From Myxococcaceae bacterium (GTDB taxonomy: Bacteria; Myxococcota; Myxococcia; Myxococcales; Myxococcaceae): a stretch of DNA of 32,727 bases. The position numbers and the translations under genes were made by a program. Shown piece by piece: positions 1-13,942 of the stretch. Numbering within the stretch: position 1 is the stretch's first letter; each line of letters opens with the position of its first letter. A model generated the notes under the pieces. The model was not told the origin of the DNA. It was given only the letters and a program-made list of their open reading frames with translations, and did no database searches. The stretch is taken from NCBI GenBank assembly GCA_016926755.1, contig JAFGNZ010000024.1, positions 1 to 32,727 of the forward strand, in the 5' to 3' direction.

Positions 1-1206
1 ATGGCCCACGACTTCAACATCGAGGGCTACCAGGGCCTGAAGAAGCAGGACCTCATCTTCGCGCTGCTGTCGGGCATCGCGGACAAGAAGTTCGAGGTGC
101 ACGCCGAGGGCGTGATGGAGCTGCTCAGCGACGGCTTCGGCTTCCTGCGCAGCTCGGACAGCGACTACCAGCCGAGCCCGGACGACATCTACGTGTCCCC
201 CTCGCAGGTGCGGCGCTTCAACCTGCGGCCGGGCGACACGGTGACGGGCCCCATCCGCCAGCCGCGCGAGGGCGAGCGCTTCTTCGCGCTGCAGAAGGTG
301 GACAAGGTCAACTTCGCGGACCCGCTGTCCGAGGCGGCTCGCGAGCGCATCCTCTTCGACAACCTCACGCCGCTCTACCCCACGCGCAAGCTGAAGCTGG
401 AGCACGAGGGGTCGGAGATGACCACGCGCATCATCGATCTGTTCTGCCCCATCGGCATGGGGCAGCGCTGCCTCATCGTGGCGCCGCCGAAGGCGGGCAA
501 GACGGTGCTGCTGCAGAACATCGCGCACGCGATCGCCAAGAACCACCCGGACGTCTACCTCATGGTGCTGCTGGTGGATGAGCGCCCGGAGGAAGTGACG
601 GACATGGAGCGCAGCGTGCGCGGCGAGGTGGTGTCCTCCACCTTCGACGAGCCGGCCACGCGCCACGTGCAGGTGGCGGAGATGGTCATCGACAAGGCCA
701 AGCGCCTGGTCGAGCAGAAGTACGACGTGTGCATCCTGCTGGACTCCATCACCCGCTTGGCGCGCGCCTACAACACGGTGGTGCCGGCCTCCGGGAAGAT
801 CCTCTCCGGCGGCGTGGACGCCAACGCGCTGCACAAGCCCAAGCGCTTCTTCGGCGCCGCGCGCAACATCGAGGAGGGCGGCAGCCTCACCATCATCGGC
901 ACGGCGCTCATCGACACCGGCAGCCGCATGGACGAGGTCATCTTCGAGGAGTTCAAGGGCACCGGTAACTCGGAGATCGTCCTGGACCGCAAGCTCTTCG
1001 AGAAGCGCATCTTCCCGTGCCTGGACATCAACAAGTCCGGCACGCGCAAGGAGGAGCTGCTGCTGTCCCAGGCGGACCTCATCCGCATCACCGCGCTGCG
1101 GCAGGTGCTCCACCCGTTCACGCCGATCGACGCGATGGAGTTCGTGCTCAAGCACATGCGCCCCAGCGCCTCCAACACCGAGTTCCTCGGCTCGATGAAC
1201 CGCTAG
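1..1206 (+). CDS. rho: Transcription termination factor Rho (5'-truncated)
   Basis: Rho is the hexameric RNA-dependent ATPase/helicase that ends transcription at C-rich, untranslated RNA. The visible 401 residues cover the end of the N-terminal helical domain, the cold-shock-like RNA-binding domain (about 30-105, with DGFGFLR at 44-50 and DDIYVSPSQ at 61-69), and the RecA-like ATPase domain. Walker A is APPKAGKT (161-168); Walker B ends at Asp248 in [14 protein letters not shown]; the Q-loop ([21 protein letters not shown] region, about 269-289) and R-loop (GTGN, about 320) are intact. Base 1 happens to begin an ATG, but aligned with E. coli Rho (from memory) about 16 N-terminal residues are missing, and myxobacterial Rho may carry a longer acidic extension. 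The Met at position 1 is therefore probably internal. The stop codon overlaps the Shine-Dalgarno of the next gene. Confidence 0.97.
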
Positions 1207-1216
1207 GAGCGCCCAC

Positions 1217-1525
1217 ATGTCCCGCCCCCGTCCTGGAGGCCTGGCTGCCGTGCTCCTGGGAGTCGTGCTCGGTCTCGGGACGGGGTGCGATCCGGTGGAG
1301 CTGATCGACGACATCCCCGTGGGGCTCTCGGATGAGATCTGCTACCAGAACAGCGACTGCGCGCCCAACGGGTGCTGCGGCGAGGGCACCCACCCCACGC
1401 ACGTCTCCGAGGCCCCGGACTGCTCGGGCGTGCGCTGTGATGGGACGTGCCCGCCCGACACCATCGACTGCGGGCGCTGCCTGGCGTTCTGCCGGGACTC
1501 GCGCTGCGCCGCCGCGTGCCAGTGA
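1217..1525 (+). CDS. Small cysteine-rich lipoprotein, function unknown
   Basis: 102 residues. It has a signal peptide with Arg at 3 and 5, a Leu/Val/Gly core at 9-21 and lipobox LGTGC, so the predicted lipidated residue is Cys24. The mature part has 12 further cysteines (42, 48, 53, 54, 69, 74, 78, 85, 88, 92, 97, 101), enough for six disulfides, in a compact domain of about 60 residues that includes a CGRC pair. This fits a disulfide-stabilised envelope protein; I do not recognise a family. The start is chosen because AGGAG (1205-1209), which overlaps the rho stop codon, lies 7 bases upstream. It may be co-transcribed with rho. Its stop is only 6 bases from the convergent permease stop, with no hairpin between them. 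Confidence 0.8.
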   Translation: MSRPRPGGLAAVLLGVVLGLGTGCDPVELIDDIPVGLSDEICYQNSDCAPNGCCGEGTHPTHVSEAPDCSGVRCDGTCPPDTIDCGRCLAFCRDSRCAAACQ

Positions 1526-1531
1526 GGCGGC

Positions 1532-2725
1532 TCAGTCCCTGGGCGGCGAGACGGGCTGTACCGCTGGCGCCGGCTGGGCCTTGAGGCGCGCGAAGTCGAA
1601 GCACGCCACGAAGGTGGCGGCGAGGGGCACCGCGAACAGGGCGCCCACCAGCCCGTAGAGGCGCTCTCCGGCGATCAGGCTGAAGGCCACGATGACCGGG
1701 TGGATGCGCGCGGCCTGCCCCATGATCTTCGGGTTGAGGAAGTACGCCTCCAGCGCGTGGATGCCGATGATCCACAGGAGGATCGCCAGCCCCTTCTGGA
1801 CGCCGTCCGCCAGCGCGATGAGGACGATGGGCACCGAGCTGAGGATGGTGCCGAAGATGGGGATGAGGCTGAAGACGGTGGCGATGGTGGCCAGCAGGAA
1901 GGCGAACTTCACCCCGAACAGCAGCAGCCCGATGGCGGTGAGGGTGCCGTTCACCACGCAGATGGTGACCTGGCCGCGCACCACGCCGGACAGCGAGCGA
2001 TCCAGGCGCTCCAGGAGCAGGCGCGCGTCGGCGGAGTACTCGGGCGGGATGAGGGTGCCGAAGTAGCCGCGGATGGCGTGCGCGTCGATGGAGAAGAACG
2101 CGGCCACCATCAGGATGAAGAACAGCATGAAGACGCCGGCGAGCACCCCGCCGATGATGTTGCGCGAGATGTGGACGATGTTGCCCAGGTTCTCCCGCGC
2201 CAGCACGGCCAGGCGCGCCACGGAGTCCTTGAGCAGCTGCCCCAGATCCAGCGCGAAGCTGAGAGAGCCGCCGGGGGCCACGTCCTCGCCCTGCACGGCC
2301 CGGTCGGAGAGCGCGATGGGGATGCCGTAGCCGCTCAGCCACTCCTCGGCGCGGTGCGCGAGCGACTGGAGGTACTCCGGGGTGAGCGAGTTGGCGAAGG
2401 CCAGCCCGTCCCGGCTGATGCGCGCCAGCTCCCGGTAGAGCTGCGGCAGCAGCGCGATGAAGAACAGGTACATGCCCACGAAGAAGAGGGCGTAGATGAG
2501 GAGGATGGCCACCCACCGGGGGATGGGGCGCCCGCGCACCTGCAAGCGCGTGATGCGGGCCACGAGCGGCTGGACGAGGTAGGCGATGAGGGCCGCGCCG
2601 GCGAACGGCATCACCACCGAGCGGAAGAGGATGAGCACCGCCGCGATCGCTCCCCACAGGCACGCGAGGATGACGAGCCGCTTCCGGCGCTCGGCAGGGG
2701 CGAAGGCATCGTGGGGCTGCAGCAT
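1532..2725 (-). CDS. AI-2E family (PerM/YdiK-type) membrane permease
   Basis: 397 residues of the PF01594 (AI-2E exporter-like / UPF0118) family. Two N-terminal membrane helices (about 18-50) are followed by a third near 70-92 and a soluble, amphipathic stretch at about 95-190. The helical C-terminal half has the family signatures SLIPIFGTILSSVPI and, after two more helices, NPKIMG. Members include autoinducer-2 exporters and Na+/H+-antiporter-like proteins, so the substrate cannot be inferred. No quorum-sensing gene lies nearby. The upstream gene on this strand starts 88 bases away, so a shared transcript is possible. No good Shine-Dalgarno precedes the ATG, so the exact start is less certain than the family call. 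Confidence 0.9.
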   Translation of the reverse strand: MLQPHDAFAPAERRKRLVILACLWGAIAAVLILFRSVVMPFAGAALIAYLVQPLVARITRLQVRGRPIPRWVAILLIYALFFVGMYLFFIALLPQLYRELARISRDGLAFANSLTPEYLQSLAHRAEEWLSGYGIPIALSDRAVQGEDVAPGGSLSFALDLGQLLKDSVARLAVLARENLGNIVHISRNIIGGVLAGVFMLFFILMVAAFFSIDAHAIRGYFGTLIPPEYSADARLLLERLDRSLSGVVRGQVTICVVNGTLTAIGLLLFGVKFAFLLATIATVFSLIPIFGTILSSVPIVLIALADGVQKGLAILLWIIGIHALEAYFLNPKIMGQAARIHPVIVAFSLIAGERLYGLVGALFAVPLAATFVACFDFARLKAQPAPAVQPVSPPRD

Positions 2726-2763
2726 GGGCGCGGCTTATGGCAGAGGCGTTCTTTCCTCACAAG

Positions 2764-2781
2764 CCTTCCCCCGCTGGAAGG
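2764..2781. repeat. Small inverted repeat between two minus-strand genes
   Basis: CCTTCC (2764-2769) pairs with GGAAGG (2776-2781) around a 6-base loop, in the gap between the hypothetical gene ending at 2814 and the permease starting at 2725. No T-run follows on either strand, so it is at best a weak attenuator or processing site. Confidence 0.25.
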
Positions 2782-2813
2782 GTGCGCCCGGTCGTTGGGC
2801 TCCCTACCAATCA

Positions 2814-3284
2814 TCAGAGGATGAGGCCGGAGGGGGGCGGCTGCACCAGGCGCATCCGCGCCTCCAGCTTGTCCAGGACCTGGCTCATGTGCGGCCGCTT
2901 CACGCGGCCCTCGGTGGCCTCGCCCAGCCCCAGCAGCTGCTCCACGAGCCAGCGGGTGAGGAAGAGCAGCGGCAGGCGATCCGTGGGGGCCAGCCCGCGC
3001 TCCAGGTAGCGCTTGTTGCGCATGTAGTCGTCGTAGGCGTCGAACTCTCGCGCCAGCTCCCAGCGAGACAGCCGCAGCGCCTCGTCATAGACGGCCTGGG
3101 AAGGGCGCGGCGGGGGCTCCAGGAAGAGGGGCGCGAACGTGCCTCCCATATCCAGGTCGATCTCCTGCACGGGCGGCGGCCAGCGGGACAGATCCTTGGC
3201 CAGCAGCTTCGACACCTCTTCCAGGAGGTGATCGATCAGGGGGACGGGCTTCGCCTCGAAGAGATGGTCCCAGCGCGAGGACAT
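2814..3284 (-). CDS. Hypothetical protein (156 aa)
   Basis: A soluble protein of 156 residues with no signal peptide or membrane helix. The N-terminal half is acidic and proline-rich (WPPPVQEIDLDMGG); the C-terminal half looks helical, with RWLVEQLLGLGEATEG and a closing amphipathic segment around 130-148. I recognise no domain. It starts 11 bases after the stop of the methyltransferase-like gene, with GAGGAG directly before the ATG, so the two are very likely in one operon. The context offers no firm function. Confidence 0.75.
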   Translation of the reverse strand: MSSRWDHLFEAKPVPLIDHLLEEVSKLLAKDLSRWPPPVQEIDLDMGGTFAPLFLEPPPRPSQAVYDEALRLSRWELAREFDAYDDYMRNKRYLERGLAPTDRLPLLFLTRWLVEQLLGLGEATEGRVKRPHMSQVLDKLEARMRLVQPPPSGLIL

Positions 3285-3295
3285 GGCTCCTCAAC

Positions 3296-4849
3296 CTAGC
3301 GCATCGCCGCGTCCGGGTGGAGCAGCCGCTCCCGGGCCTCTCGGGCGCGCGCGTGCGTCGGCTCCCGCGCCAGCACCTGCTCGAAGGACTCCAGCGCCTC
3401 GGCGCGCCGGCCCAGCGCCTCCAGGCTGGCTCCCAGCTCATAGCGCGCCTCGGTCCGCTCGCCGTACAGGGCCGTCGAGCGCTCCAGGTAGTCCACCGCC
3501 GCGGCGGGGCACTCCAGCTGCCGCAGCAGCGGCGCGAGCCTGACCGCCAGATCCTCCTCGGTCCTGAGGGGGTAGTCGTTGCGCCAGAGCTGCTCGAACG
3601 CTCGCAGGAACTCCTTCCGGAGCGGGAGGGGGGCGGAGCGCAGCAGCTGCGGCAGCTGCTCGTGGAGGCGGAAGATCAGCTCCGGCTCCCACCCGCTCAG
3701 GCGCAGCAGCGTGAGGAGCTGCTCCGGCCCCTGGTCCTCGAGGTGGGAGGAGACCATGTTGATGAGCGCGTGCCGCTCCAGCGGGGGCAGCGCGCGGATG
3801 GCCTCGTGGAAGGCCATGCTCGTGGCCGGCGCGGCCTCTCGGGGAGCGCCCAGCATCCACGCGGCCACGTTGAGCCGGGAGGGCGCCTCGGTGCCGCGGA
3901 GCCAGAAGCCTCCGCGCTCCTCCACCCACGCGCCCATGGCGTGGAAGTTGAGCATGAAGGAGACACACCCCTGGTGCCGGGCGATCCGAGGGCGCCGCTC
4001 GGCCCGCAGGTCCTCCTCGCTCAGGTAGCCCTTGTCCGCGGACAGCAGCAGCCACCGGCCCTGGGCCAGGCTGGAGAGGGCCTCCATGCAGCGCAGCGCG
4101 CCGACCGGGAAGGGGAGGGTCGCGCCCTCCAGCCGCTGCCGGTAGCACTCCAGCAGGCGGTTCCACTCCGGCTCCTCGTAGGCCTGGCCCTGCACGGGGT
4201 GGAAGCCCACGGTCATGGGGACTCCGTGCAGGAAGGTGAGCGCCTCGAGGCCCTCGTCGCCCTCGGGGGCGGGCTGGAGGCGCCCTTCGTGGAGCACGCC
4301 CCCTTCGACGCGGAAGAAGTCATGTTCGAGGCTGTCGAACAGGTAGTTGCCGAGCACCACCAGCGGGTTGCGGAGGGTGCCCGGCTCGATGCGCTCGCCC
4401 GAGGAGAGGAGCTCCAGCGGCTCGCGCGCCCCGGCGTCGCGGAGGGCGAAGGCGATCCGGCCGGAGGCGATGAGCGGCTGCAGCAGCGGGTGGGCCATCG
4501 AGGCGCGGATGTTGCTCGCGGCCACGTCGGTCAGGATGAAGCGCACGGGTGGGCCCCCCGTGGGGGCGATCTCCTCGAGCGCGTCCAGCGTGCCGAGCAG
4601 CCTCCAGGCGAGGCGCGCCGAGCCGGCTCCCAGCTCGACGACGTAGAGGGGCGCTCGCGGATCTCCCAGGCGGAGGCAGTCCTGCTGCAGGCCGCGGATG
4701 ATGCGCGCGTAGGCCGCGGCGATGGCCGCGCTCGTGGTGACGTGCGAGGGCACGGCCCCTGAGGTGAAGGCGGCGGTGCCCTGCTCGTTATAGAACTGCT
4801 GCTGCGTGCTCCACAGCGAGGAGCGGGAGAGGCGAGGGTGATCGTCCAT
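3296..4849 (-). CDS. SAM-dependent methyltransferase-like protein with C-terminal TPR repeats
   Basis: 517 residues. A Rossmann SAM-binding motif I, VVELGAGSARL, is at 70-80, and an acidic motif II, FILTDVA, at 104-110 (Asp108). NPLVVLGNYLFDSLEHD at about 162-178 recalls the arrangement in the MidA/NDUFAF7 (DUF185) group. The last 100 residues contain two or three TPR-like helix pairs (AAVDYLERSTALYGERTEARYELG, then ALESFEQVLAREP), which suggests binding to a protein partner. The methyl acceptor is unknown. No convincing Shine-Dalgarno precedes the ATG at 4849; just upstream is the amidotransferase gene remnant, so the promoter of this gene may have been acquired or shortened in the same event. 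It leads the unit continuing to 2814 and perhaps to 1532. Confidence 0.75.
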   Translation of the reverse strand: MDDHPRLSRSSLWSTQQQFYNEQGTAAFTSGAVPSHVTTSAAIAAAYARIIRGLQQDCLRLGDPRAPLYVVELGAGSARLAWRLLGTLDALEEIAPTGGPPVRFILTDVAASNIRASMAHPLLQPLIASGRIAFALRDAGAREPLELLSSGERIEPGTLRNPLVVLGNYLFDSLEHDFFRVEGGVLHEGRLQPAPEGDEGLEALTFLHGVPMTVGFHPVQGQAYEEPEWNRLLECYRQRLEGATLPFPVGALRCMEALSSLAQGRWLLLSADKGYLSEEDLRAERRPRIARHQGCVSFMLNFHAMGAWVEERGGFWLRGTEAPSRLNVAAWMLGAPREAAPATSMAFHEAIRALPPLERHALINMVSSHLEDQGPEQLLTLLRLSGWEPELIFRLHEQLPQLLRSAPLPLRKEFLRAFEQLWRNDYPLRTEEDLAVRLAPLLRQLECPAAAVDYLERSTALYGERTEARYELGASLEALGRRAEALESFEQVLAREPTHARAREARERLLHPDAAMR

Positions 4850-5204
4850 CGCCGCGCAGGGTAGAAGGCGCGGCCCCGCGGATCCACTTCGCCCGGTGGC
4901 GGCCGAGCACGCCCGGTGTCAGCCGCCGCGCGCGCGGGCAGCTTCGCGCCCTGGTGGGCGTGGGCCACCTCGAATCGATAACCGGACAGTCCCAGGGCCT
5001 CCAGAAGCCACCGGTCGTAGTCGCCCACCGAGAGGCGCACCGAGGCCGCGGCCTCTCCTGCTTTCAGCAACAGAACGTTCTTCACCAGGCGCCTCGCTGC
5101 TCCGGGTTGCCACCGCTGGGAGCCAGCCCTACCGTTCTGCGCCGATCCCGAGCCGGTGCCCACGCCTTTCGCGCTCCCGCGCCCGGATCCTCGGAGGTGT
5201 CTCC
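4850..5204. other. Divergent intergenic region (355 bp) holding a gene remnant
   Basis: This gap separates the minus-strand methyltransferase-like gene from the plus-strand aldehyde dehydrogenase. It is not empty: 4927-5085 on the minus strand codes for the start of a glutamine-amidotransferase-like protein. The remaining 5086-5204 should carry the aldehyde dehydrogenase promoter, but I see no consensus -35/-10 pair there. GGAGG at 5193-5197 is the ribosome binding site for the ATG at 5205. Confidence 0.6.
4927..5085 (-). pseudogene. 5' remnant of a class I glutamine amidotransferase gene
   Basis: A GTG at 5085 preceded by GAGG with 6-base spacing opens a frame of about 53 residues with strong protein character. 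It begins with a VKNVLLLKAGEAA strand, followed by VGDYDRWLLEALGLSGYRF and an AHAHQG segment. That order matches the N-terminus of GMP-synthase-like class I glutamine amidotransferases, where a GDY..(F/W)...LG helix precedes the strand leading to the oxyanion loop. The expected continuation (Asp-Ala-Val...Thr-Gly-Ser, then the catalytic Cys, His and Glu) is absent. From about residue 54 the frame turns into Arg/Pro-rich sequence and runs into the methyltransferase gene in another frame. The family assignment is from memory and should be checked. It lies beside a gamma-glutamyl ligase operon, where such a hydrolase would fit. Confidence 0.55.
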
Positions 5205-6695
5205 ATGAATGACGCTCGCTCGCTCACTCCTCAGCTCCCCGCCCTCAAGCTGCTCATCGACGGCCAGCCCGTGGACCCCGTGGAGGGGGGGACGCTTCCG
5301 GTGGTGAACCCCGCCACCGGGCAGAAGATCTGCGACGTGCCCTCCGCCACCGGCGCGGACGTGGACAAGGCGGTGAGGGCCGCGCGCCGCGCCTTCGAGT
5401 CCGGCCCCTGGGGGCGGATGAACGCCAGCGAGCGGGGCAGGCTGATCCGCAAGCTGTCGGACCTGCTCTGGCAGCGCCGCGAGGAGTTCGCCCTCGTCGA
5501 GTCGATGAACAACGGCAAGACGTTCAAGGACGCCATTCGCGGGGACGTGGCCCCCGGCGCCGCGACGCTGGCCTACTTCGCGGAGCTGTCCAACAAGATC
5601 ACCGGCGAGGTGCTGCCGGTGGACGGCCCCTTCCTCACCTACTGCCTCAAGGAGCCGGTGGGCGTGGTGGCGGCCATCATCCCGTGGAACTACCCCACGT
5701 CCCTGCTGTGCTGGAAGCTGGGGCCCGCGCTCGCGGCGGGGTGCACCGTGGTGGTGAAGCCCTCGGAGCTCACGCCGCTCACCGCCCTCAAGCTGGGAGC
5801 GCTCGCCCTGGAGGCGGGCTTCCCGCCGGGCGTGCTCAACGTGGTGACAGGCTATGGCGATCCGGCCGGCGAGGCGATCGCCCGGCACCCGGACGTGGAC
5901 AAGATCTCCTTCACGGGCTCGGGGCGCACGGCGCGCCGGCTCCTGCAGGCCTCCGCCAGCAGCAACCTCAAGAAGCTGACGCTGGAGCTGGGCGGCAAGA
6001 GCCCGCAGATCATCCTCCCGGACGCGGACTTCGACAGCGCCGTGGAGGCGTGCTTCTGGGGCATCTTCGGCAACAAGGGAGAGACGTGCAACGCGGGCAG
6101 CCGCGTGCTCGTCCACGAGAAGGCCTATGACGAGCTCGTCGGTCGGCTGGCCGAGCGCGCGCGGAGGATGCGGGTGGGGGATCCGCTGGATCCCGAGACG
6201 GAGATGGGCTCGCAGATCAGCGCGCGCCAGCTCGAGACGATCCTCGGCTACATCGACAGCGGCCGGAAGCAGGGCGCCCGGCTGCTCACCGGCGGCGAGC
6301 GGGACACGCAGGGCGCCAAGGCGAAGGGCTTCTTCGTGAAGCCCACCCTCTTCGGGGACGTGCAGCCGGAGATGAAGATCGCCCAGGAGGAGATCTTCGG
6401 CCCGGTGCTCAGCTGCATCCGCTTCCGGGACGAGGCGCACGCGCTGGAGATCGCCAACGGCACGCCCTACGGCCTGGCCGCCTCGATCTGGACGCGCGAC
6501 GTGGCCAAGGCGCACGCGATGGCGCGCAAGGTGAAGAGCGGCGTGGTGTGGATCAACTGCTTCAACGAGTTCGACGATGCCGCGCCCTTTGGTGGCTACA
6601 AGGAGTCCGGCTGGGGCAGGGATCTGTCCCATCACGCCCTGGAGGGTTACCTCCAGTACAAGGCGGTGTGGACGAAGCTGCCCGAGGGGCTGTGA
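5205..6695 (+). CDS. NAD(P)-dependent aldehyde dehydrogenase
   Basis: 496 residues, the usual length for the ALDH superfamily, oxidising an aldehyde to its carboxylic acid with NAD(P)+. The oxyanion Asn162 is in IIPWNYP, the cofactor-site FTGSG is at 236-240, the general base Glu261 is in LELGGKSPQI, and the nucleophile Cys295 is in GETCNAG. The C-terminal PFGGYKESG signature is present. The start at 5205 is chosen because GGAGG lies 7 bases upstream and residues 15-25 form the normal family beginning; the frame is open further upstream but that part is Arg/Pro-rich noise. It is followed 27 bases later by the glutamine-synthetase-like gene and then an iron alcohol dehydrogenase. In this setting the likely substrate is a gamma-glutamylamino-aldehyde, as for PuuC; this is inference. 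Confidence 0.95.
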   Translation: MNDARSLTPQLPALKLLIDGQPVDPVEGGTLPVVNPATGQKICDVPSATGADVDKAVRAARRAFESGPWGRMNASERGRLIRKLSDLLWQRREEFALVESMNNGKTFKDAIRGDVAPGAATLAYFAELSNKITGEVLPVDGPFLTYCLKEPVGVVAAIIPWNYPTSLLCWKLGPALAAGCTVVVKPSELTPLTALKLGALALEAGFPPGVLNVVTGYGDPAGEAIARHPDVDKISFTGSGRTARRLLQASASSNLKKLTLELGGKSPQIILPDADFDSAVEACFWGIFGNKGETCNAGSRVLVHEKAYDELVGRLAERARRMRVGDPLDPETEMGSQISARQLETILGYIDSGRKQGARLLTGGERDTQGAKAKGFFVKPTLFGDVQPEMKIAQEEIFGPVLSCIRFRDEAHALEIANGTPYGLAASIWTRDVAKAHAMARKVKSGVVWINCFNEFDDAAPFGGYKESGWGRDLSHHALEGYLQYKAVWTKLPEGL

Positions 6696-6722
6696 GCTCT
6701 CATGGAAGAAGGACGCGCACAC

Positions 6723-8180
6723 ATGGCAATCCGTCCCAAGGCGAAGGTCATCTCCCACCCAGTCATGGCGAGGCGCGCGCGCGCGAAGGAGCGCGGCGAA
6801 GTGGTGCGCCCGGTGGCGCGCGAGCCCGGCGGCGTGGACTTCCTGCGCAAGTGGTTCGAGGAGAAGGGCGTCCGCAAGGTGAAGCTGGGCGCGGTGGACA
6901 TCGACGGCGTCTGGCGCGGCAAGTACGTCTCCACCGACAAGTTCTTCTCCGCGGCGAAGAGCGGGCTGGGGTTCTGTGATGTCGTCTTCGGGTGGGATCT
7001 GGCGGACGAGCTGCTGGACAACACCCAGGTGACGGGCTGGCACACCGGCTACCCGGACGCGTGCGCGCGAGTGGACGTGTCCTCCGGCCGCATCATCCCT
7101 TGGGAGCCGGACACGGCGGCCTTCCTGCTGGACTTCGTGAACGCGGACGGCTCAGCCTATGCGGCCAGCCCCCGCCAGCTCCTCCAGAAGGTCGCGCGGC
7201 GCGCGAGGGACCTGGGCTTCATGCCGAAGTTCGGCGCGGAGTACGAGTTCTTCATCTTCAAGGAGACGCCGCACTCGCTGAAGGAGAAGGGCTTCCAGGG
7301 CCTCACGCCGCTCACGCCGGGCATGTTCGGCTACTCGTGGCTGCGCACGTCGCTGAACTCGGCGCTGGTGCACGCGCTCATCGACGGGTGCAACGCCTTC
7401 GGGGTGGACATCGAGGGCTTCCACACGGAGACGGGCCCTGGCGTCTTCGAGGCCGCCATCCGCTACGACGAGCTGGAGAAGGCCGCGGACAAGGCGGTGC
7501 TCTTCAAGACGGCGGTGAAGGAGCTCTGCGCGCGCCACGGGCTGACGGCGTGCTTCATGGCCAAGGTGAACGCGAAGCTGCCGGGGTGCTCGGGGCACGT
7601 GCACCAGTCGCTGTGGACGCTCAAGGGGGAGCAGAACACCTTCTACGACGAGTCCGCGCCGGACGGCATGAGCCAGACGATGCGGCACTACATCGGCGGG
7701 CAGGTGGAGCTGATGCCGGAGCTGACGGCGCTCTACTGGCCCACGGTGAACAGCTACAAGCGCAGCGTGGAGAACACGTGGGCGCCCACCACGGCGACGT
7801 GGGGCCGGGAGAACCGCACCACGGCCATCCGCGTCATCGGCGACAGCCCCAAGTCCATGCGGCTGGAGTACCGGCAGCTCGGCGCGGACATGAACGCGTA
7901 CATCGGCATGGCCGTCAGCCTGGCGGCGGGGCTGTGGGGCATCCAGAACGAGGTGGAGCCGCCGTCCATGTGCGCGGGCAACGGCTACGAGGCCAACGCC
8001 CGGCCGCTGCCGCGCAACCTGAAGGAGGCGGTGGCGCTGCTCGAGTCCTCCGAGTGCGCGCGGGAATTGCTGGGGGATGACTTCGTGGACCACTACGTGC
8101 GCACGCGCAAGTGGGAGGTGCGTCAGTACGAGCGCGCCGTCACCAACTGGGAGCTGGAGCGCTACCTGGAGCTCATCTGA
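6723..8180 (+). CDS. Glutamine-synthetase-family ligase, probably a gamma-glutamyl-amide (amine) synthetase
   Basis: 485 residues of the type I glutamine synthetase fold, joining glutamate to ammonia or an amine at the expense of ATP. The metal/glutamate-site motifs are GAEYEFFIF (171-179), Glu236 and Glu243 in ETGPGVFEAA, GHVHQSLW (291-298), NSYKR (343-347) and the ENRTTAIRV loop (363-371). The HVH motif lacks the Met of canonical GlnA (GMHxH), and the adenylylation-site region of enterobacterial GlnA is not apparent. These features and the neighbours (aldehyde and alcohol dehydrogenases, no nitrogen-regulation gene) point to a PuuA/GlnA3/GlnA4-like enzyme rather than the ammonia-assimilating one. 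The ATG at 6723 is preferred over 6702 because AAGGA (6709-6713) precedes it by 9 bases. The basic N-terminal 35 residues are an unusual extension. Confidence 0.88.
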   Translation: MAIRPKAKVISHPVMARRARAKERGEVVRPVAREPGGVDFLRKWFEEKGVRKVKLGAVDIDGVWRGKYVSTDKFFSAAKSGLGFCDVVFGWDLADELLDNTQVTGWHTGYPDACARVDVSSGRIIPWEPDTAAFLLDFVNADGSAYAASPRQLLQKVARRARDLGFMPKFGAEYEFFIFKETPHSLKEKGFQGLTPLTPGMFGYSWLRTSLNSALVHALIDGCNAFGVDIEGFHTETGPGVFEAAIRYDELEKAADKAVLFKTAVKELCARHGLTACFMAKVNAKLPGCSGHVHQSLWTLKGEQNTFYDESAPDGMSQTMRHYIGGQVELMPELTALYWPTVNSYKRSVENTWAPTTATWGRENRTTAIRVIGDSPKSMRLEYRQLGADMNAYIGMAVSLAAGLWGIQNEVEPPSMCAGNGYEANARPLPRNLKEAVALLESSECARELLGDDFVDHYVRTRKWEVRQYERAVTNWELERYLELI

Positions 8181-8192
8181 TCTACCTGCCTT

Positions 8193-8212
8193 CCTCTCCC
8201 TGGTGGGAGAGG
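8193..8212. repeat. REP-like perfect palindrome
   Basis: CCTCTCCC (8193-8200) and GGGAGAGG (8205-8212) form a perfect 8-bp stem with a TGGT loop, followed by GGCTGAGGG. It resembles the CTCTCCC...GGGAGAGGG-type extragenic palindromes common in many high-G+C genomes. There is no T-tract, so it is not a classical terminator. It lies in the 78-base gap before the alcohol dehydrogenase and could reduce read-through or stabilise the upstream mRNA. Confidence 0.5.
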
Positions 8213-8258
8213 GGCTGAGGGTTTCCCGCTACAGTACGGAAGGATCGGGTTCAATACG

Positions 8259-9443
8259 ATGCAGCCGTTCGATATGCCGACCGAAGCGCGCGTCTCCGAG
8301 ATGTCCTGGCCCACGAAGATCGTCCTCGGCGTGGGCGCCCTGCAGCGCCTGCCCGCCCAGGTGGCGCGGCTGAAGATGAAGCGCCCGCTGGTGGTGACGG
8401 ATGCGGGCGTGGTGAAGGCGGGGCTCGCCCAGCGCGTGTTCGATGTGCTGCGGGGCGCCGGGGTGGAGTACGCGGTGTTCGACCGCGTGGAGCCGAACCC
8501 CACGGAGAAGGACGTGTTCGCCGGGCTGGAGGCGTACCGGCACCACCAGTGCGATGGAGTCGTGGCGCTCGGGGGCGGCAGCCCGCTGGACGCCGCGAAG
8601 CTGGTGCAGCTGCTCACCACGCACGAGCCGCCGCTGTCGCGCTACGACGACGCCAAGGGCGGGGACCAGTACGTGCGCGACGATCTGCCGCCGCTCATCG
8701 CCATTCCGACCACGGCGGGGACGGGCTCGGAGGTGAGCCGCTCGGGCGTGGTGACGCTGCAGGACACGGGGCGCAAGACGGTCATCTTCAGCCCGTACCT
8801 GCTGCCCAAGGCGGCCATCTGCGATCCGGAGCTGACGCTCGGGCTGCCGCCGGGGCCCACCGCGGCCACGGGCATGGATGCGCTGACGCACTGCCTGGAG
8901 GCGTACATCGCCAACGGCTTCCACCCGCTGGCGGACGCGGTGGCCCTTGATGGCATTGCCCGGGTGGGGCGCTCGCTCGTCACCGCGGTGAAGGAGGGCA
9001 GCAACGTCTCGGCGCGCGCGGACATGATGGTGGCGGCGATGGAGGGGGCGATGGCGTTCCAGAAGGGCCTGGGGGCGTGCCATGCGCTGGCGCACGCGCT
9101 GACGCCCATCTCCGGAACGCACCACGGCCTGGCCAATGCGATCGTGCTGCCGGTGGTGATGGAGTTCAACCGGCCCATGTGCACGGCGCGGCTGGCGCGC
9201 GTGGCGGTGGCGCTGGGAGAGTTCGTCAACATGCGGGAGGACGTGCTGGCCGGCCACGCCATCGATCGGATCCGCAAGCTCAACGCGGCCATCGGGATTC
9301 CGGCGCGGCTGCGCGACGTGGGGGTGCAGGAGAAGGACCTGCCGCGCATCGCCGCGAAGGCCTTCGAGGACGCCTCGCACCTGACGAATCCGCGCAAGTG
9401 CACCGAGGCGGACCTGTTGGCGATGGCGCGCGAGGCGTTCTGA
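8259..9443 (+). CDS. Iron-containing (group III) alcohol dehydrogenase
   Basis: 394 residues, typical for the Fe-ADH family, which interconverts alcohols and aldehydes with NAD(P)(H). The dinucleotide site GGGSPLDAAK is at 105-114 and TTAGTGSEVS at 151-160. The four metal ligands have the spacing known from FucO: Asp207 and His211 in MDALTHCLEAY, His275 in GACHALAHAL, and His289 in GTHHGLANA (D-x3-H and H-x13-H). No strong Shine-Dalgarno lies at normal spacing before 8259; AAGGA is 15 bases away, and Met6 (8274) is an alternative start. As third gene of the aldehyde dehydrogenase-ligase group, it could oxidise the hydroxyl of a gamma-glutamylated amino alcohol. That would explain its presence where a putrescine pathway would instead have an amine oxidase. 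Confidence 0.92.
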   Translation: MQPFDMPTEARVSEMSWPTKIVLGVGALQRLPAQVARLKMKRPLVVTDAGVVKAGLAQRVFDVLRGAGVEYAVFDRVEPNPTEKDVFAGLEAYRHHQCDGVVALGGGSPLDAAKLVQLLTTHEPPLSRYDDAKGGDQYVRDDLPPLIAIPTTAGTGSEVSRSGVVTLQDTGRKTVIFSPYLLPKAAICDPELTLGLPPGPTAATGMDALTHCLEAYIANGFHPLADAVALDGIARVGRSLVTAVKEGSNVSARADMMVAAMEGAMAFQKGLGACHALAHALTPISGTHHGLANAIVLPVVMEFNRPMCTARLARVAVALGEFVNMREDVLAGHAIDRIRKLNAAIGIPARLRDVGVQEKDLPRIAAKAFEDASHLTNPRKCTEADLLAMAREAF

Positions 9444-9756
9444 GCTGTCGGGGATGCAGGCCGAGTGATCCCTGCCATTCTCCCAGTTCCTCAGCTGGAA
9501 GCGACCGGAACAGCGTACTGGGCTTCGTCACCGTCGACGTGGACAACCGGTTGGAGGCCCTGTGCATCTGCCAGCCTTGGGACAGTGCCGTAGTACAGCG
9601 AGAAACCCATCTCCCAGCTGAAGATGAGCGAAGCGTTGAAGTGCACGGCGGCGGCTCATGGTCAGCATTGAACGTGCGGCCACTCCTTCGAGCTTTCGGA
9701 ATTGCCCCCGGGCTGGTGCCGTGGAATCAAGGCCGACATCGCACGGGAGGCACACC
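9444..9756. other. Intergenic region (313 bp) with an antisense coding relic
   Basis: Lower G+C than its neighbours. The minus strand holds a short protein-like frame (9491-9646). GGGAGG at 9745-9750 is the ribosome binding site of the aldo/keto reductase. I see no clear terminator for the preceding operon and no consensus promoter. Confidence 0.5.
9491..9646 (-). pseudogene. Short orphan coding segment, probable 3' remnant of a lost gene
   Basis: A frame from GTG at 9646 to a TGA at 9493-9491 encodes 51 residues of convincing protein character. It begins with FNASLIFSWEMGFSLYYG (residues 3-20), passes VVHVDGDEAQYAV and ends at the stop. Aromatic and hydrophobic residues alternate as in beta strands, and codons favour G/C at the third base, though less than in neighbouring genes. 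An in-frame TGA lies four codons before the GTG, and no Shine-Dalgarno is visible. It is more likely the C-terminal remnant of a larger protein than a complete gene. I do not recognise the family. Confidence 0.4.
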
Positions 9757-10746
9757 ATGCAGCAGCGGCAGCTCGGCAATTCCAATCTTCACATCACCCC
9801 CATCGGCTTCGGCGCCTGGGCCATCGGTGGCGGAGGCTGGGCCTTCGCGTGGGGGCCTCAGGATGACCAGCAGTCCATCCGCGCCATCCGGCGCGCGCTC
9901 GATCTGGGCATCAACTGGATCGACACCGCCGCCGTGTACGGGCTCGGCCACTCGGAGGAGATCGTCGCCAGAGCCCTGGAGGGCCGCGCGAACCGGCCGC
10001 TCATCTTCACCAAGTGCGGCCTCGTCTGGGACGCCCAGGGCCGGGTCAGCAACGCGCTGAGCCCGGACTCCATCCGGCGCGAGTGCGAGGCGAGCCTGCG
10101 CCGGCTCAAGGTGGACGCCATCGATCTCTACCAGCTCCACTGGCCCCCGGAGGGGGACTCGCTGAAGGGCATCGAGGAGGCGTGGACGACCATGACCGAG
10201 CTTCAGCGCCAGGGCAAGGTGCGCTGGATCGGTGTCTCCAACTTCAACGCCGAGCAGATGGAGCTGGCGCACCGCATCGCTCCCATCACCTCGCTGCAGC
10301 CACCGTACTCACTCATCCACCGCGGCATCGAGGCGGACATCCTCCCGTTCTGCGAGCGGCAGAACATCGGCGTCATCGCCTACTCGCCCATGGCCTCGGG
10401 CTTGCTGACGGGGGCCATGACGCGCGAGCGCGTGGCCCGCTTCCCCCAGGATGACTGGCGGCGCCGCAGCCCGGACTTCCAGGAGCCGCTGCTCTCGCGG
10501 AACCTGGCGCTGGTGGAGCGGCTGCGTCAGATCGGCGCGCGGCACGGGCGCTCACCGGCCGAGGCCGCCATCGCCTGGGTGCTGCGGCTGCCGGTCGTCA
10601 CGGCCGCCATCGTGGGGGCCCGCAGCGCCGAGCAGGTGGAGGGCTTCACTGGTGCCATGGACTTCCGCCTCTCGCGCAGCGAGCAGCAGGAACTCGAGGA
10701 CTTCCTCCGCCAACAGTCGTCCCCTGGCGGCGAGGCGCACATCTAG
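9757..10746 (+). CDS. Aldo/keto reductase
   Basis: 329 residues forming the (beta/alpha)8 barrel of NADPH-dependent aldo/keto reductases, which reduce aldehydes and ketones. The catalytic tetrad is complete: Asp56 and Tyr61 in WIDTAAVYG, Lys86 in IFTKCG and His128 in YQLHWP. The cofactor-binding segments WIGVSNF, AYSPMASGLLTG and the C-terminal IVGARSAEQV region are present. ATG 9757 is chosen because GGGAGG lies 6 bases upstream and the family beginning QRQLGNSNLHITPIGFG follows at once; the open frame reaching back to 9658 has no homology-like sequence. It belongs to the YdhF/YajO/voltage-gated-channel-beta-like groups; the substrate is unknown. It sits alone between two minus-strand relics, suggesting local rearrangement. 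Confidence 0.94.
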   Translation: MQQRQLGNSNLHITPIGFGAWAIGGGGWAFAWGPQDDQQSIRAIRRALDLGINWIDTAAVYGLGHSEEIVARALEGRANRPLIFTKCGLVWDAQGRVSNALSPDSIRRECEASLRRLKVDAIDLYQLHWPPEGDSLKGIEEAWTTMTELQRQGKVRWIGVSNFNAEQMELAHRIAPITSLQPPYSLIHRGIEADILPFCERQNIGVIAYSPMASGLLTGAMTRERVARFPQDDWRRRSPDFQEPLLSRNLALVERLRQIGARHGRSPAEAAIAWVLRLPVVTAAIVGARSAEQVEGFTGAMDFRLSRSEQQELEDFLRQQSSPGGEAHI

Positions 10747-10747
10747 G

Positions 10748-10938
10748 TCAGGGGAGCTGGAACGACACCATCGCGCGAGTCGAGTGTCCCGGCGCGACGA
10801 GCTCCTCGAAGGGGATGTGGAAGGCATGGACCACGTTCCATGGCGTCCCCGTGGAGGATGCAGAGCGGCGGCCTGATCCTCGGGAACCTGCTGCAGGCCC
10901 TGGTAGTCTTCGCGCCGTTCATGAATGACATCTTCCAT
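10748..10938 (-). pseudogene. Frameshifted relic of an unidentified gene
   Basis: On the minus strand, ATG at 10938 opens a frame reading MEDVIHERREDYQGLQQVPE and onward. Around 10855-10865 protein-like character switches to the +1 frame, which continues PWNVVHAFHIPFEELVAPGH and ends at TGA 10750-10748. The spliced product would be about 63 residues; the total length of 191 bases is not a multiple of three. The C-terminal stretch is clearly protein-like and ends one base from the aldo/keto reductase stop codon, tail to tail. One indel, or a sequencing error, would explain the pattern. The family is not recognised. Confidence 0.38.
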
Positions 10939-11012
10939 ACGGCTCCCTTCAGCCTGAGCAAGTGGATCATCCGCTGGAGGGAGCGAGCCGCTCACGGAGG
11001 GAGCACGCGCGC

Positions 11013-12008
11013 ATGATCCACGTCCTTGCATTCCTCGCGGCAGGGCTCGTCGTCGTCTTCGCGGGGACGGCCCTCGCGCGCTACGGTGACGCGATCGCGG
11101 AGGCGACGAAGGTGGGCCGGCTGTGGATCGGCTCCGTGCTGCTCGCGGGCGCGACCTCCCTCCCCGAGCTGGCGACGGACATCTCCGCCGTGCGCCTGGG
11201 CGCGGTGGACCTGGCCGTGGGAGATCTCTTCGGCTCGAGCATGGCCAACATGCTCATCCTCGCGCTGATCGATCTGCTCCCCCCGCGAAGGCGGGTCCTC
11301 CAGCAGGTCAACCTCGATCACGCGCTCTCCGTGGCGCTCGCGATCTCCGTCAACGCGCTCGCCGCGGTGTTCATCCTCGTCCGCCCCGAGTTCACGATCC
11401 TGGGGATCTCGCCGGGCTCCGTGCTGCTCGTCCTTGCCTACGTGCTCGGCACGCGCGCGATCTACCGGCACGTGACCCGGGAGGGAGCGACGCTGAGCAT
11501 GGGGCTCGCGCAGGAGGAGGGCCCGTCGAAGCTCTCACTCCGCCAGGCCCTGCTGGGCTTCGGGGGGGCCTCGGCGGTCATCCTCGTCTCGGCCCCGCTC
11601 TTCGCCTGGGGCGCCAAGGGCATCGCGGAGATGACCGGCCTGGGCAACACGTTCGTGGGGACCTGGCTCGTCGGCCTTTCGACTTCGCTGCCAGAGCTCG
11701 TGGCCTCGGTGGCCGCCGTCCGGATGGGCGCCTTCGACATGGCCGTGGGCAACCTCTTCGGCTCCAACGCGTTCAACATGGCCATCCTCTTCCCCCTGGA
11801 TCTCGCCCAGCGCGGCAGCCTCTTCGCGGCGGTCGACCCGAGCCACGTCCTGTCAGCGCTCTTCGGGGTGATCCTGATGGCCCTGGGCCTTGCCGCGATC
11901 GCCTACCGGGCCCAGCGGCGCTTCGCGATGCTGGAGCCCGACAGCCTCTTGGTCCTCGCGGCCTATGTGCTGGGGATCTGGCTGCTCTACCTCCACGCGG
12001 TGCCCTGA
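11013..12008 (+). CDS. Sodium/calcium exchanger-type cation antiporter
   Basis: 331 residues, polytopic inner-membrane protein of the CaCA superfamily (YrbG-like), exchanging Ca2+ for Na+ or H+. The two inverted alpha repeats are plain: GATSLPELATDISAVRLG with GDLFGSSMANM (about 47-80), and GLSTSLPELVASVAAVRMG with GNLFGSNAFNM (about 222-255). Both have the ion-binding Glu in (S/T)SLPEL and the Asn/Ser region of the second half. About ten hydrophobic helices are visible, with a soluble loop at about 155-180. The start at 11013 is supported by GGAGGGAG at 10996-11003; upstream GTG codons in frame give only charged residues before the first helix. The gene stands alone, downstream of the frameshifted relic. 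Confidence 0.93.
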   Translation: MIHVLAFLAAGLVVVFAGTALARYGDAIAEATKVGRLWIGSVLLAGATSLPELATDISAVRLGAVDLAVGDLFGSSMANMLILALIDLLPPRRRVLQQVNLDHALSVALAISVNALAAVFILVRPEFTILGISPGSVLLVLAYVLGTRAIYRHVTREGATLSMGLAQEEGPSKLSLRQALLGFGGASAVILVSAPLFAWGAKGIAEMTGLGNTFVGTWLVGLSTSLPELVASVAAVRMGAFDMAVGNLFGSNAFNMAILFPLDLAQRGSLFAAVDPSHVLSALFGVILMALGLAAIAYRAQRRFAMLEPDSLLVLAAYVLGIWLLYLHAVP

Positions 12009-12151
12009 TCCCCAGTGGGCCGCTCTCCGCCCTTGACTGCAACTCCCCTACATTGCGGCAAAACGAGAAAAATATGACTTGACTGGAGTTCTAAATTTGT
12101 AAGAAAGTAGGGGAGCGTTCGGCCTTTCGCCGGACCGGAGGATCCCCCGCC
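12009..12151 (+). promoter_or_regulatory. AT-rich control region upstream of the M4 protease gene
   Basis: Bases 12060-12110 form an A/T-rich island in otherwise very G+C-rich DNA. CTCCCCTAC (12043-12051) and GTAGGGGAG (12107-12115) are a perfect 9-bp inverted repeat with a 55-base spacer. TTGACTG occurs twice, at 12033-12039 and 12079-12085. TTGACT at 12079 resembles a -35 box, but the matching -10 is poor; TAAATT at 12092-12097 is too close. CGGAGGA (12136-12142) is the ribosome binding site. The arms could be operator half-sites or the base of a long stem in the leader. Confidence 0.5.
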
Positions 12152-13942
12152 ATGCGTATTCGCCGTCTCGTCCCTCTCCTCCCCCTGCTCCTCGGGAGCG
12201 CCTGCGGCATCGACAGCCCAGGCCTCGACGCCGAGCAGGACAGCAGCCAGGTGTCCGACGTCTCGCAGACCATGAAGCTGGGCGCAGGGCAGGGCCTGCG
12301 TCAGCTCCAGGCGCAGCGGCCCGACTTCTTCCGCGGTGCGGGCGAGCTGGCGTTCAAGCGCGGCCTGGTCGACATGCGCGGCCAGGCGCACGAGCGCCTG
12401 GAGCAGCGCGTCAATGGCATCCCCGTCTTCGGGGGGCAGGCCATCCTCCACCTCAACGATGACGGCACCATCGCGTCCATCACGGATCGCCTCGTGCGCG
12501 ACCTCAAGGTCGACACCAAGGCGAAGCTCCGGGCCGAGGAGGCCATCCAGATCGCCGTCGACCATGCGGGCGGCCCGAGCCTCCTGGGCGCCGCGCCGAA
12601 GGCGGACCTGCTGATCCTCCCCGACAGCAAGGGCAGTGGGCTGGCCTGGCGGGTGGAGCTCGAGACCCTCTCCAGCGAGGGCGAGTTCGCGATGCCGAAC
12701 CTCTTCATCGACGCGCACACGGGCGAGCTGGTCCAGGAGTTCAACAACCTCAAGACCGCCCGAAACCGGAAGACCTACACGGCCAACAACCGCACGAGTC
12801 TCCCCGGGACGCTGGTGCGCTCCGAGGGGCAGGGGGCTGGGAGTGACGCCGTCCTGAACCAGGCCCACGACAACGCGGGCTACACGTATGACTTCTACTC
12901 CAGCACCTTCGGGCGTGACAGCTTCGACGATGCGGGCGCCACCATCACCTCGAGCGTTCACTACAGCAGGAACTACGTGAACGCGTTCTGGAATGGGACG
13001 CAGATGGTCTACGGCGACGGCGACGGCTCCCAGTCCGGCCCGCTGACGGTGCTGGACGTCGTGGGCCACGAGCTCACCCACGCCGTCACCGAATACTCCT
13101 CGGGCCTCATCTACGCGAACGAGTCCGGTGCCCTCAACGAGGCCATGTCCGACATCTTCGGCGCGTCCATCGAGGCCTACCGGGATGGCACGGTCAGCGC
13201 CAACACCTGGAAGATCGGCGAGGAGTGCTGGACCCCGGCCACCGCGGGCGACGCGCTGCGCTACATGAACGATCCGGCCGCGGCTGGCGACTACGACTAC
13301 TACCCCACGCGCTACACGGGCACCTCCGACAACGGCGGCGTGCACTGGAACTCGGGTATCGCCAACCTGGCCTTCAAGCTGATGGTCACCGGCGGCACCC
13401 ACCCGCGCGGCAAGACGAGCAACGTGGTGCCGGCGCTGGACGCGAACGCCTACACCAGCATCATGAAGGCCGCGGCCATCTTCTACCGCGCCAACACGGT
13501 GTACCTCACGCCGGGCAGCACCTTCTCCGAGGCGCGCGGGGCCACCGCGCAGGCCGCCGCCGACCTCTACGGCTCGGCCGCCGCCACCTCGGTGAACGAG
13601 GCCTGGACCGCGGTGGGCGTGGCCGCGCCTCCGACCTGGACCGTGATCTCCACCGTGAACAACCTGTCGGGCGGCAAGAGCAGCAACACGAACTACAACT
13701 ACGCCACGCCGAGCGGCGCGACGGCGATGCGGTTCGTGCTCGCCGGCGGCTCGGGTGACGCCGACCTGTACGTGAAGTTCGGCAGCGCGCCCACCACCAG
13801 CAGCTACGACTGCCGCTCCGCGGGCGCGACCAGCGATGAGAGCTGCACCATCAACGGGGCGAAGCAGGGCACGTACTACGTCCTGATCCGCGGGTACACG
13901 GCCTACTCGGGCGTCACCTACACGGTGAGCTCCGGCCAGTAG
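12152..13942 (+). CDS. Secreted M4 (thermolysin-like) zinc metalloprotease with PPC domain
   Basis: 596 residue preproenzyme. A basic N-terminus (RIRR) and Leu-rich core end at SAC, so Cys18 may be lipidated, or the peptide cleaved there. Residues about 35-215 are the FTP/PepSY propeptide (chaperone-inhibitor). The catalytic domain has zinc ligands His306 and His310 in GHELTHAVTEYSSGL, with catalytic Glu307, the third ligand Glu330 in NEAMSD, and the transition-state His398 in GGVHWNSG. The spacing His306 to Glu330 equals that of thermolysin (142 to 166). The last 100 residues are a bacterial pre-peptidase C-terminal (PPC) beta domain with GDADLYVKFG, usually removed after secretion. It fits the predatory, proteolytic lifestyle of myxobacteria. 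A strong terminator follows. Confidence 0.96.
   Translation: MRIRRLVPLLPLLLGSACGIDSPGLDAEQDSSQVSDVSQTMKLGAGQGLRQLQAQRPDFFRGAGELAFKRGLVDMRGQAHERLEQRVNGIPVFGGQAILHLNDDGTIASITDRLVRDLKVDTKAKLRAEEAIQIAVDHAGGPSLLGAAPKADLLILPDSKGSGLAWRVELETLSSEGEFAMPNLFIDAHTGELVQEFNNLKTARNRKTYTANNRTSLPGTLVRSEGQGAGSDAVLNQAHDNAGYTYDFYSSTFGRDSFDDAGATITSSVHYSRNYVNAFWNGTQMVYGDGDGSQSGPLTVLDVVGHELTHAVTEYSSGLIYANESGALNEAMSDIFGASIEAYRDGTVSANTWKIGEECWTPATAGDALRYMNDPAAAGDYDYYPTRYTGTSDNGGVHWNSGIANLAFKLMVTGGTHPRGKTSNVVPALDANAYTSIMKAAAIFYRANTVYLTPGSTFSEARGATAQAAADLYGSAAATSVNEAWTAVGVAAPPTWTVISTVNNLSGGKSSNTNYNYATPSGATAMRFVLAGGSGDADLYVKFGSAPTTSSYDCRSAGATSDESCTINGAKQGTYYVLIRGYTAYSGVTYTVSSGQ

Follow-up and report, generated by a model that had tools for sequence, protein, structure and literature searches.

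We report that the window, the whole 32,727-nucleotide stretch of DNA analysed here, carries on its minus strand (4924..5085) the first 53-54 codons of a class I glutamine amidotransferase (GATase) gene, identified by similarity to intact relatives. Judged from its sequence, this fragment is a genuine pseudogene, and the kind of event behind it is an ordinary one. We suggest an explanation that we hold, as a whole, to be highly probable: the pseudogene arose by replacement of DNA, the lost enzyme was an optional hydrolase, and the route to which it belonged is kept up by another hydrolase. In this explanation, the ancestor would have had a whole GATase gene of ~245 codons, divergent from a set of ligase and dehydrogenase genes as in six congeners. 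In this lineage, ~1.0 kb was then exchanged, as the comparison shows, for ~1.6 kb of DNA with a gene for a methyltransferase-TPR protein, leaving 53 codons. The lost enzyme would be a gamma-glutamyl-amide hydrolase of the route encoded next to it, in which an amine would be converted to a gamma-glutamyl amine, the alcohol would be oxidized to an aldehyde and then to an acid, and glutamate would be released last. Because another hydrolase, for instance a PuuD-like peptidase C26, could carry out this last step, the route is most likely still in operation, perhaps less strongly constrained than before.

The translation of 5085-4927 on the minus strand, VKNVLLLKAGEAAASVRLSVGDYDRWLLEALGLSGYRFEVAHAHQGAKLPARA, begins at a GTG codon with the weak Shine-Dalgarno sequence GAGG six bases upstream. 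The window comes from a soil myxobacterium of the genus Hyalangium, and each of the six other genomes of this genus has an uninterrupted gene that matches the translation with 73-83% identity across 51-53 residues (E 1e-20 to 1e-25 per genome). The homology to GATases ends at codon 50-54. The GVCFGHQ and QFHPE motifs of these relatives, of which we take the Cys and the His-Glu, respectively, to be the catalytic residues of the GATase family, both lie beyond the end of the remnant at residue 54. Thus, the original prediction of an amidotransferase N-terminus of ~53 codons, with a GTG start and a Shine-Dalgarno sequence and with the catalytic part missing, agrees with the comparison, as does its divergent orientation relative to the neighboring genes for an aldehyde dehydrogenase (ALDH), a glutamine-synthetase-like (GS) ligase and an alcohol dehydrogenase (ADH). 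With a remnant of 53 codons left, the comparison shows that no active enzyme can come from this locus. The reading frame of the remnant stays open down to 4531 (184 codons, with a stop codon ending there), and no similarity to intact GATases was found in this frame beyond codon 54. A Pfam search with a 79-residue reading of the remnant returned no family because the remnant is too short to have a match of its own.

In all six congeners, the GATase gene is present at the same place and is free of internal stop codons over the piece, as had been anticipated for close relatives. The protein from one of them (G005) has 245 residues and scores 214.8 bits against NF006562 (PRK09065; cut-off 205) and 83.7 bits against PF00117 (cut-off 22.8). 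Matches to the GATase at E 1e-20 are found in 74 of 96 genomes of the family, and these cover at least 240 of the 245 residues in 65 genomes; a match that ends at residue 54 is found in the window's genome alone. We also considered, and rejected, that the assembly contains the lost part or another copy of the gene elsewhere. A search with the intact GATase protein identified other amidotransferases and no second orthologue (next best match by E value, 30% identity, 2.4e-12), and a 1035-bp segment of a relative spanning the lost part matched the 9.59-Mb assembly at just two places, over 26-36 bases, with 40 of 447 first-look candidates scored. In the search for a second full copy that had been proposed together with the prediction, none was thus found in the assembly.

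To define the break, the window was aligned to the corresponding loci of G005 (L018) and G006 (L019). The window is collinear with L018 at 87-88% over positions 1-3328 (L018 2768-6130) and again over positions 4923-9452 (L018 7145-11632). The left flank contains rho (1..1206, plus strand; 97-98% amino acid identity to L018 and L019), a conserved gene that we call an AI-2E-type transporter after its counterpart in L018 (1532..2725, minus strand) and the conserved gene gD (2814..3284, minus strand), which codes for 156 amino acids without a Pfam match. Between the flanks, L018 has 1014 bases and the window 1594 bases. The L018 interval comprises ~190 GATase codons, including those of the catalytic motifs, as well as the greater part of a small lipoprotein-like gene, while the window interval comprises the methyltransferase-TPR gene at 3296-4849 and 74 bases; the comparison with L019 gives the same picture. 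Thus, with ~1.0 kb and ~1.6 kb of different DNA between collinear flanks, the event is a replacement and not a plain deletion. As a consequence, the original idea of a deletion is right in that part of the amidotransferase gene is lost, but the lost part was replaced by methyltransferase-TPR DNA, and the downstream lipoprotein-like gene was lost too. The end of the deletion had been placed just before the methyltransferase-like gene, and this position needs adjustment: in the alignment, the right break is at ~4923, 74 bases before the ATG at 4849, and the 74-bp join between remnant and methyltransferase gene (4850..4923) could not be aligned with the corresponding DNA of relatives. In the left break region (3285..3328), the alignment resumes collinearity at the end of the lipoprotein-like gene that is lost here.

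The gene that took the place (3296..4849, minus strand) codes for a protein of 517 amino acids that is methyltransferase-like (Methyltransf_28, below its cut-off) and has a C-terminal TPR region. The sequence before its start codon, CCTTCTACCCTGCGCGGCG-ATG, has no Shine-Dalgarno sequence that can be recognised by eye, which fits the earlier remark that this gene lacks one of its own. Relatives of the methyltransferase-TPR protein have a patchy distribution (18 of 96 family genomes) and are distant, with full-length matches at most 38% identical (best 37-38%) and partial matches at most 41%, and no such gene is present at this site in the loci compared, which are among the best 80 of 567. The protein has no match in phage records and one match, at 29%, in plasmid records. 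It is from the distribution that we infer that the new DNA with the methyltransferase-TPR gene arrived from outside; the G+C content of the gene is only slightly higher than that of its neighbors (73% vs 66-71%).

None of our observations spoke against the pseudogene as such. Two further explanations concern the remnant itself. In a draft genome of 409 contigs, in which the window is one whole contig, the remnant could have been joined to the methyltransferase gene by an assembly error. However, the window contains no N, and a search of the rest of the assembly did not recover the displaced DNA among the scored candidates (40 of 447). Because both outer flanks come from the same ancestral locus, such an error would moreover require two misjoins, one on each side of a single inserted gene, in addition to the loss of 1 kb. 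We therefore rejected a contig misjoin as the main explanation and regard it as extremely improbable. The other explanation is a translated fragment, i.e. a functional short protein or a leader controlling the methyltransferase-like gene. In its favor, the fragment retains the start codon, the weak Shine-Dalgarno sequence and the 184-codon open frame, and no Shine-Dalgarno sequence is visible for the gene downstream. However, the similarity to the GATases stops at codon 54. Moreover, the pairwise omega of the remnant is 0.46-0.47 to two of three relatives and 0.30 to the third, as compared to 0.10-0.36 for the five intact pairs computed, with few sites in these comparisons, and a scan of the stretch for promoters and terminators, which used the sigma-70 consensus only, gave no match. 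We consider this explanation very unlikely and continue with a pseudogene generated by replacement.

The three genes that adjoin the remnant on the plus strand are intact and encode the ALDH (5205..6695), the GS-like ligase, a predicted gamma-glutamyl ligase (6702..8180), and the ADH, which is of the iron type (8259..9443). The clustering of a GS-like ligase with alcohol and aldehyde dehydrogenases resembles that of a gamma-glutamyl ethanolamine-type route, and the putative amidohydrolase of the cluster would be the GATase that is truncated in the window. The ligase matches four NCBIfam GS-type models but does not reach the cut-off of any of them, and it is far below that of gamma-glutamylputrescine synthetase (GGputSyn). 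The solved structures nearest to it are mostly named glutamine synthetases, and one is a glutamate-methylamine ligase. In a comparison of the best 80 of 567 GS loci, a set from which the records of the window genome itself may have been omitted, the GATase is beside the GS in 24 loci. Among the 27 loci of these best 80 in which the GS is at least 69% identical, the GATase lies divergently beside it in 23, with or without the ALDH between them, and is absent in four (L068, L072, L074 and L089). Based on this conserved neighborhood and on the analogy to Streptomyces, the lost GATase would be the glutamate-releasing hydrolase of the neighboring route. The ALDH is missing between GATase and GS in four of the six congeners and in several loci from Myxococcus and Pyxidicoccus, the loci concerned being L020-L023, L054, L058, L070, L073, L075 and L078; thus, the cluster occurs both with and without ALDH, which counts against the link between GATase and route. 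L070, which is deposited publicly as Comamonas sp. KCTC 72670, is a Myxococcaceae locus with a rho that is 94% identical, and the deposit is apparently contaminated or carries a wrong label.

Searches of the open-access literature on gamma-glutamyl ethanolamine utilization, myxobacteria included, listed no publication that deals with this locus. The closest described arrangement is that of Streptomyces coelicolor (SCO1610-SCO1615, including glnA4), for which the steps after the ligase are worded with "may" or "predicted" and the amidohydrolase is the predicted last step (PMC6529630). As in the window, a GS-like gamma-glutamyl ligase, an ALDH, an alcohol-type dehydrogenase and a glutamine amidotransferase (orf5) are described together in this ethanolamine cluster; however, its dehydrogenase is of the short-chain type and not of the iron type, and the GATase of the window is truncated and divergent (PMC6529630). 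A regulator gene is drawn in the Streptomyces cluster and a permease gene is part of it in Streptomyces other than S. coelicolor, while neither was recognised among the window neighbors examined (PMC6529630). A marine set of ethanolamine glutamylation genes, ETAGA/GAADDH/GETADH/GGAH (MED193_10026 to 10056), has the same four activities attributed to nearby genes; it differs in having TRAP transporter genes in between and in coming from another organism group (PMC10132767). We liken it to the window by assigned activities and not by sequence.

The same GATase appears to have been lost independently in three lineages of the family with the ALDH, ligase and ADH genes kept. In the genus Citreicoccus, C. 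inhibens M34 (G020, locus L089) and a second genome (G021) keep rho, the transporter, gD, the lipoprotein-like gene, ALDH, GS and ADH, and no GATase match lies between these genes. The loci of the two genomes are L089, L198 and L200. Both L089 and L198 contain a 34-base scar derived from the 3' end of the GATase gene. In crude shuffles of base pairs, 0 of 200 shuffles reached the score of the L089 scar for three of six GATases (1, 13 and 30 of 200 for the others), and 0 of 200 reached that of the L198 scar for four of six (12 and 37 of 200 for the others). In the Archangium MAG SZUA-606 (G080, L068), gD is 128 bases from ALDH, the GATase is absent and ALDH-GS-ADH are kept. The score of a weak 24-base scar of the GATase 5' end in this MAG was reached by 1 of 200 such crude shuffles against the closest relative L066 and by 12 and 17 against L055 and L054; three other GATases match best at other places (144, 11 and 0 of 200). 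The GATase is also absent beside gD and ALDH in L072 and L074, which are from MAGs. The genomes of L089, L068, L072 and L074, of which three are MAGs and may be incomplete, gave no match closer to the GATase than 39% identity (residues 48-244). The 39% match (E 1e-20) comes from the Archangium MAG and, by similarity, could be a stand-in GATase there. In a tree that left out L072 and L074, L068 clusters with Archangium violaceum, L089 clusters with G021, and both are away from the window genome; the losses therefore look independent. Because the two Citreicoccus genomes and the Archangium MAG keep ALDH-GS-ADH without the GATase, this enzyme seems to be dispensable.

A PuuD-like peptidase C26 encoded on another contig of the window genome (C146:13624-14388) is the best candidate for a protein that could take over the hydrolase step. 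It scores 228 bits (cut-off 20.5) as a peptidase C26 and is below the cut-off of the PuuD equivalog model NF008471 (130.7 vs 266 bits), and its gene adjoins apparent thiamine genes, as read from the translations. The score below the PuuD cut-off and the position on another contig count against it as the backup. A peptidase C26 is present in 87 of 96 family genomes, including all seven Hyalangium genomes and the GATase-less G020, G021 and G080. Another candidate hydrolase is a PRK07053-like amidotransferase (C138) that is 30% identical to the lost GATase. The Puu pathway is a gamma-glutamyl-putrescine route with an amine oxidase, and its hydrolase PuuD belongs to the peptidase C26 family. The window system is similar to this pathway in the logic of ligase, aldehyde dehydrogenase and hydrolase and in having a PuuD-like C26 peptidase elsewhere in the genome. 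By contrast, it has an alcohol dehydrogenase and not an amine oxidase, and its lost enzyme resembles PRK09065-type GATases more closely than it resembles PuuD.

The loss of the hydrolase could also mean that the gamma-glutamyl route as a whole is undergoing decay in this lineage and that ALDH, ligase and ADH are only weakly selected. We regard this as a possibility, albeit a doubtful one. It would account for an excess of nonsynonymous changes on the window branch: ALDH, GS and ADH have 40 nonsynonymous and 62 synonymous changes that occur on this branch alone, as compared to 54 and 202 for the branches of G005, G006 and G042 pooled (odds ratio (OR) 2.4, Fisher p 0.0008), while 12 control genes gave 110:194 vs 309:607 (OR 1.1, p 0.44). 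However, a ratio as large was observed for 11 of 220 control trios, and for GS and ADH alone the excess over the sister branches (OR 2.1, p 0.027) was reached by 6.8% of random control trios. Inside the window genome, the pathway genes behave like control genes, both for the three genes against four controls (OR 1.4, p 0.25) and for GS and ADH against nine controls (23:40 vs 94:160, OR 0.98). In the branch test, codons with multiple changes were counted once, G042 is from another genus, and the node joining the window genome to G005 and G006 has weak support (0.33). The 12 control genes passed stricter filters (three from L201, six from L210 and three from the left flank of the window); these filters dropped one gene of the four-gene control set (62% identity), L214 gave no usable gene, and the ALDH counts are from a separate earlier count and were not part of this gene choice. 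Also arguing against decay, the frames of all three genes are unbroken, their pairwise omega is 0.13-0.24 against three relatives, i.e. far below 1, and ALDH-GS-ADH are kept in other genomes that lack the GATase. Thus, these genes are still constrained and have somewhat more amino acid changes on the window branch, which is suggestive of relaxation but no proof of it. Given the apparently independent losses, the route could also have shifted from the complete degradation of an amine to the synthesis of a gamma-glutamyl compound, for instance gamma-glutamylglycine, that is retained or exported, or the GATase could always have been a side player with peptidase C26 as the true last enzyme in myxobacteria; we consider this unlikely.

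Replacement of the GATase gene next to a route that continues, as we favor, is of wider interest because the role of the GATase beside GlnA4-type clusters is only predicted in Streptomyces (PMC6529630). The gene loss is a clean one, flanked left and right by collinear DNA, and represents a natural test of the need for a GATase in these clusters, and strains with and without the enzyme exist for comparison, i.e. the other Hyalangium, Citreicoccus and the strain of the window. Past the right end of the operon, DNA similarity to L018 stops at 9452. Beyond it, positions 9658-13942 of the window encode an aldo/keto reductase, a Na/Ca exchanger and a thermolysin-type protease, and a protease with 41% identity is encoded nearby in L019.
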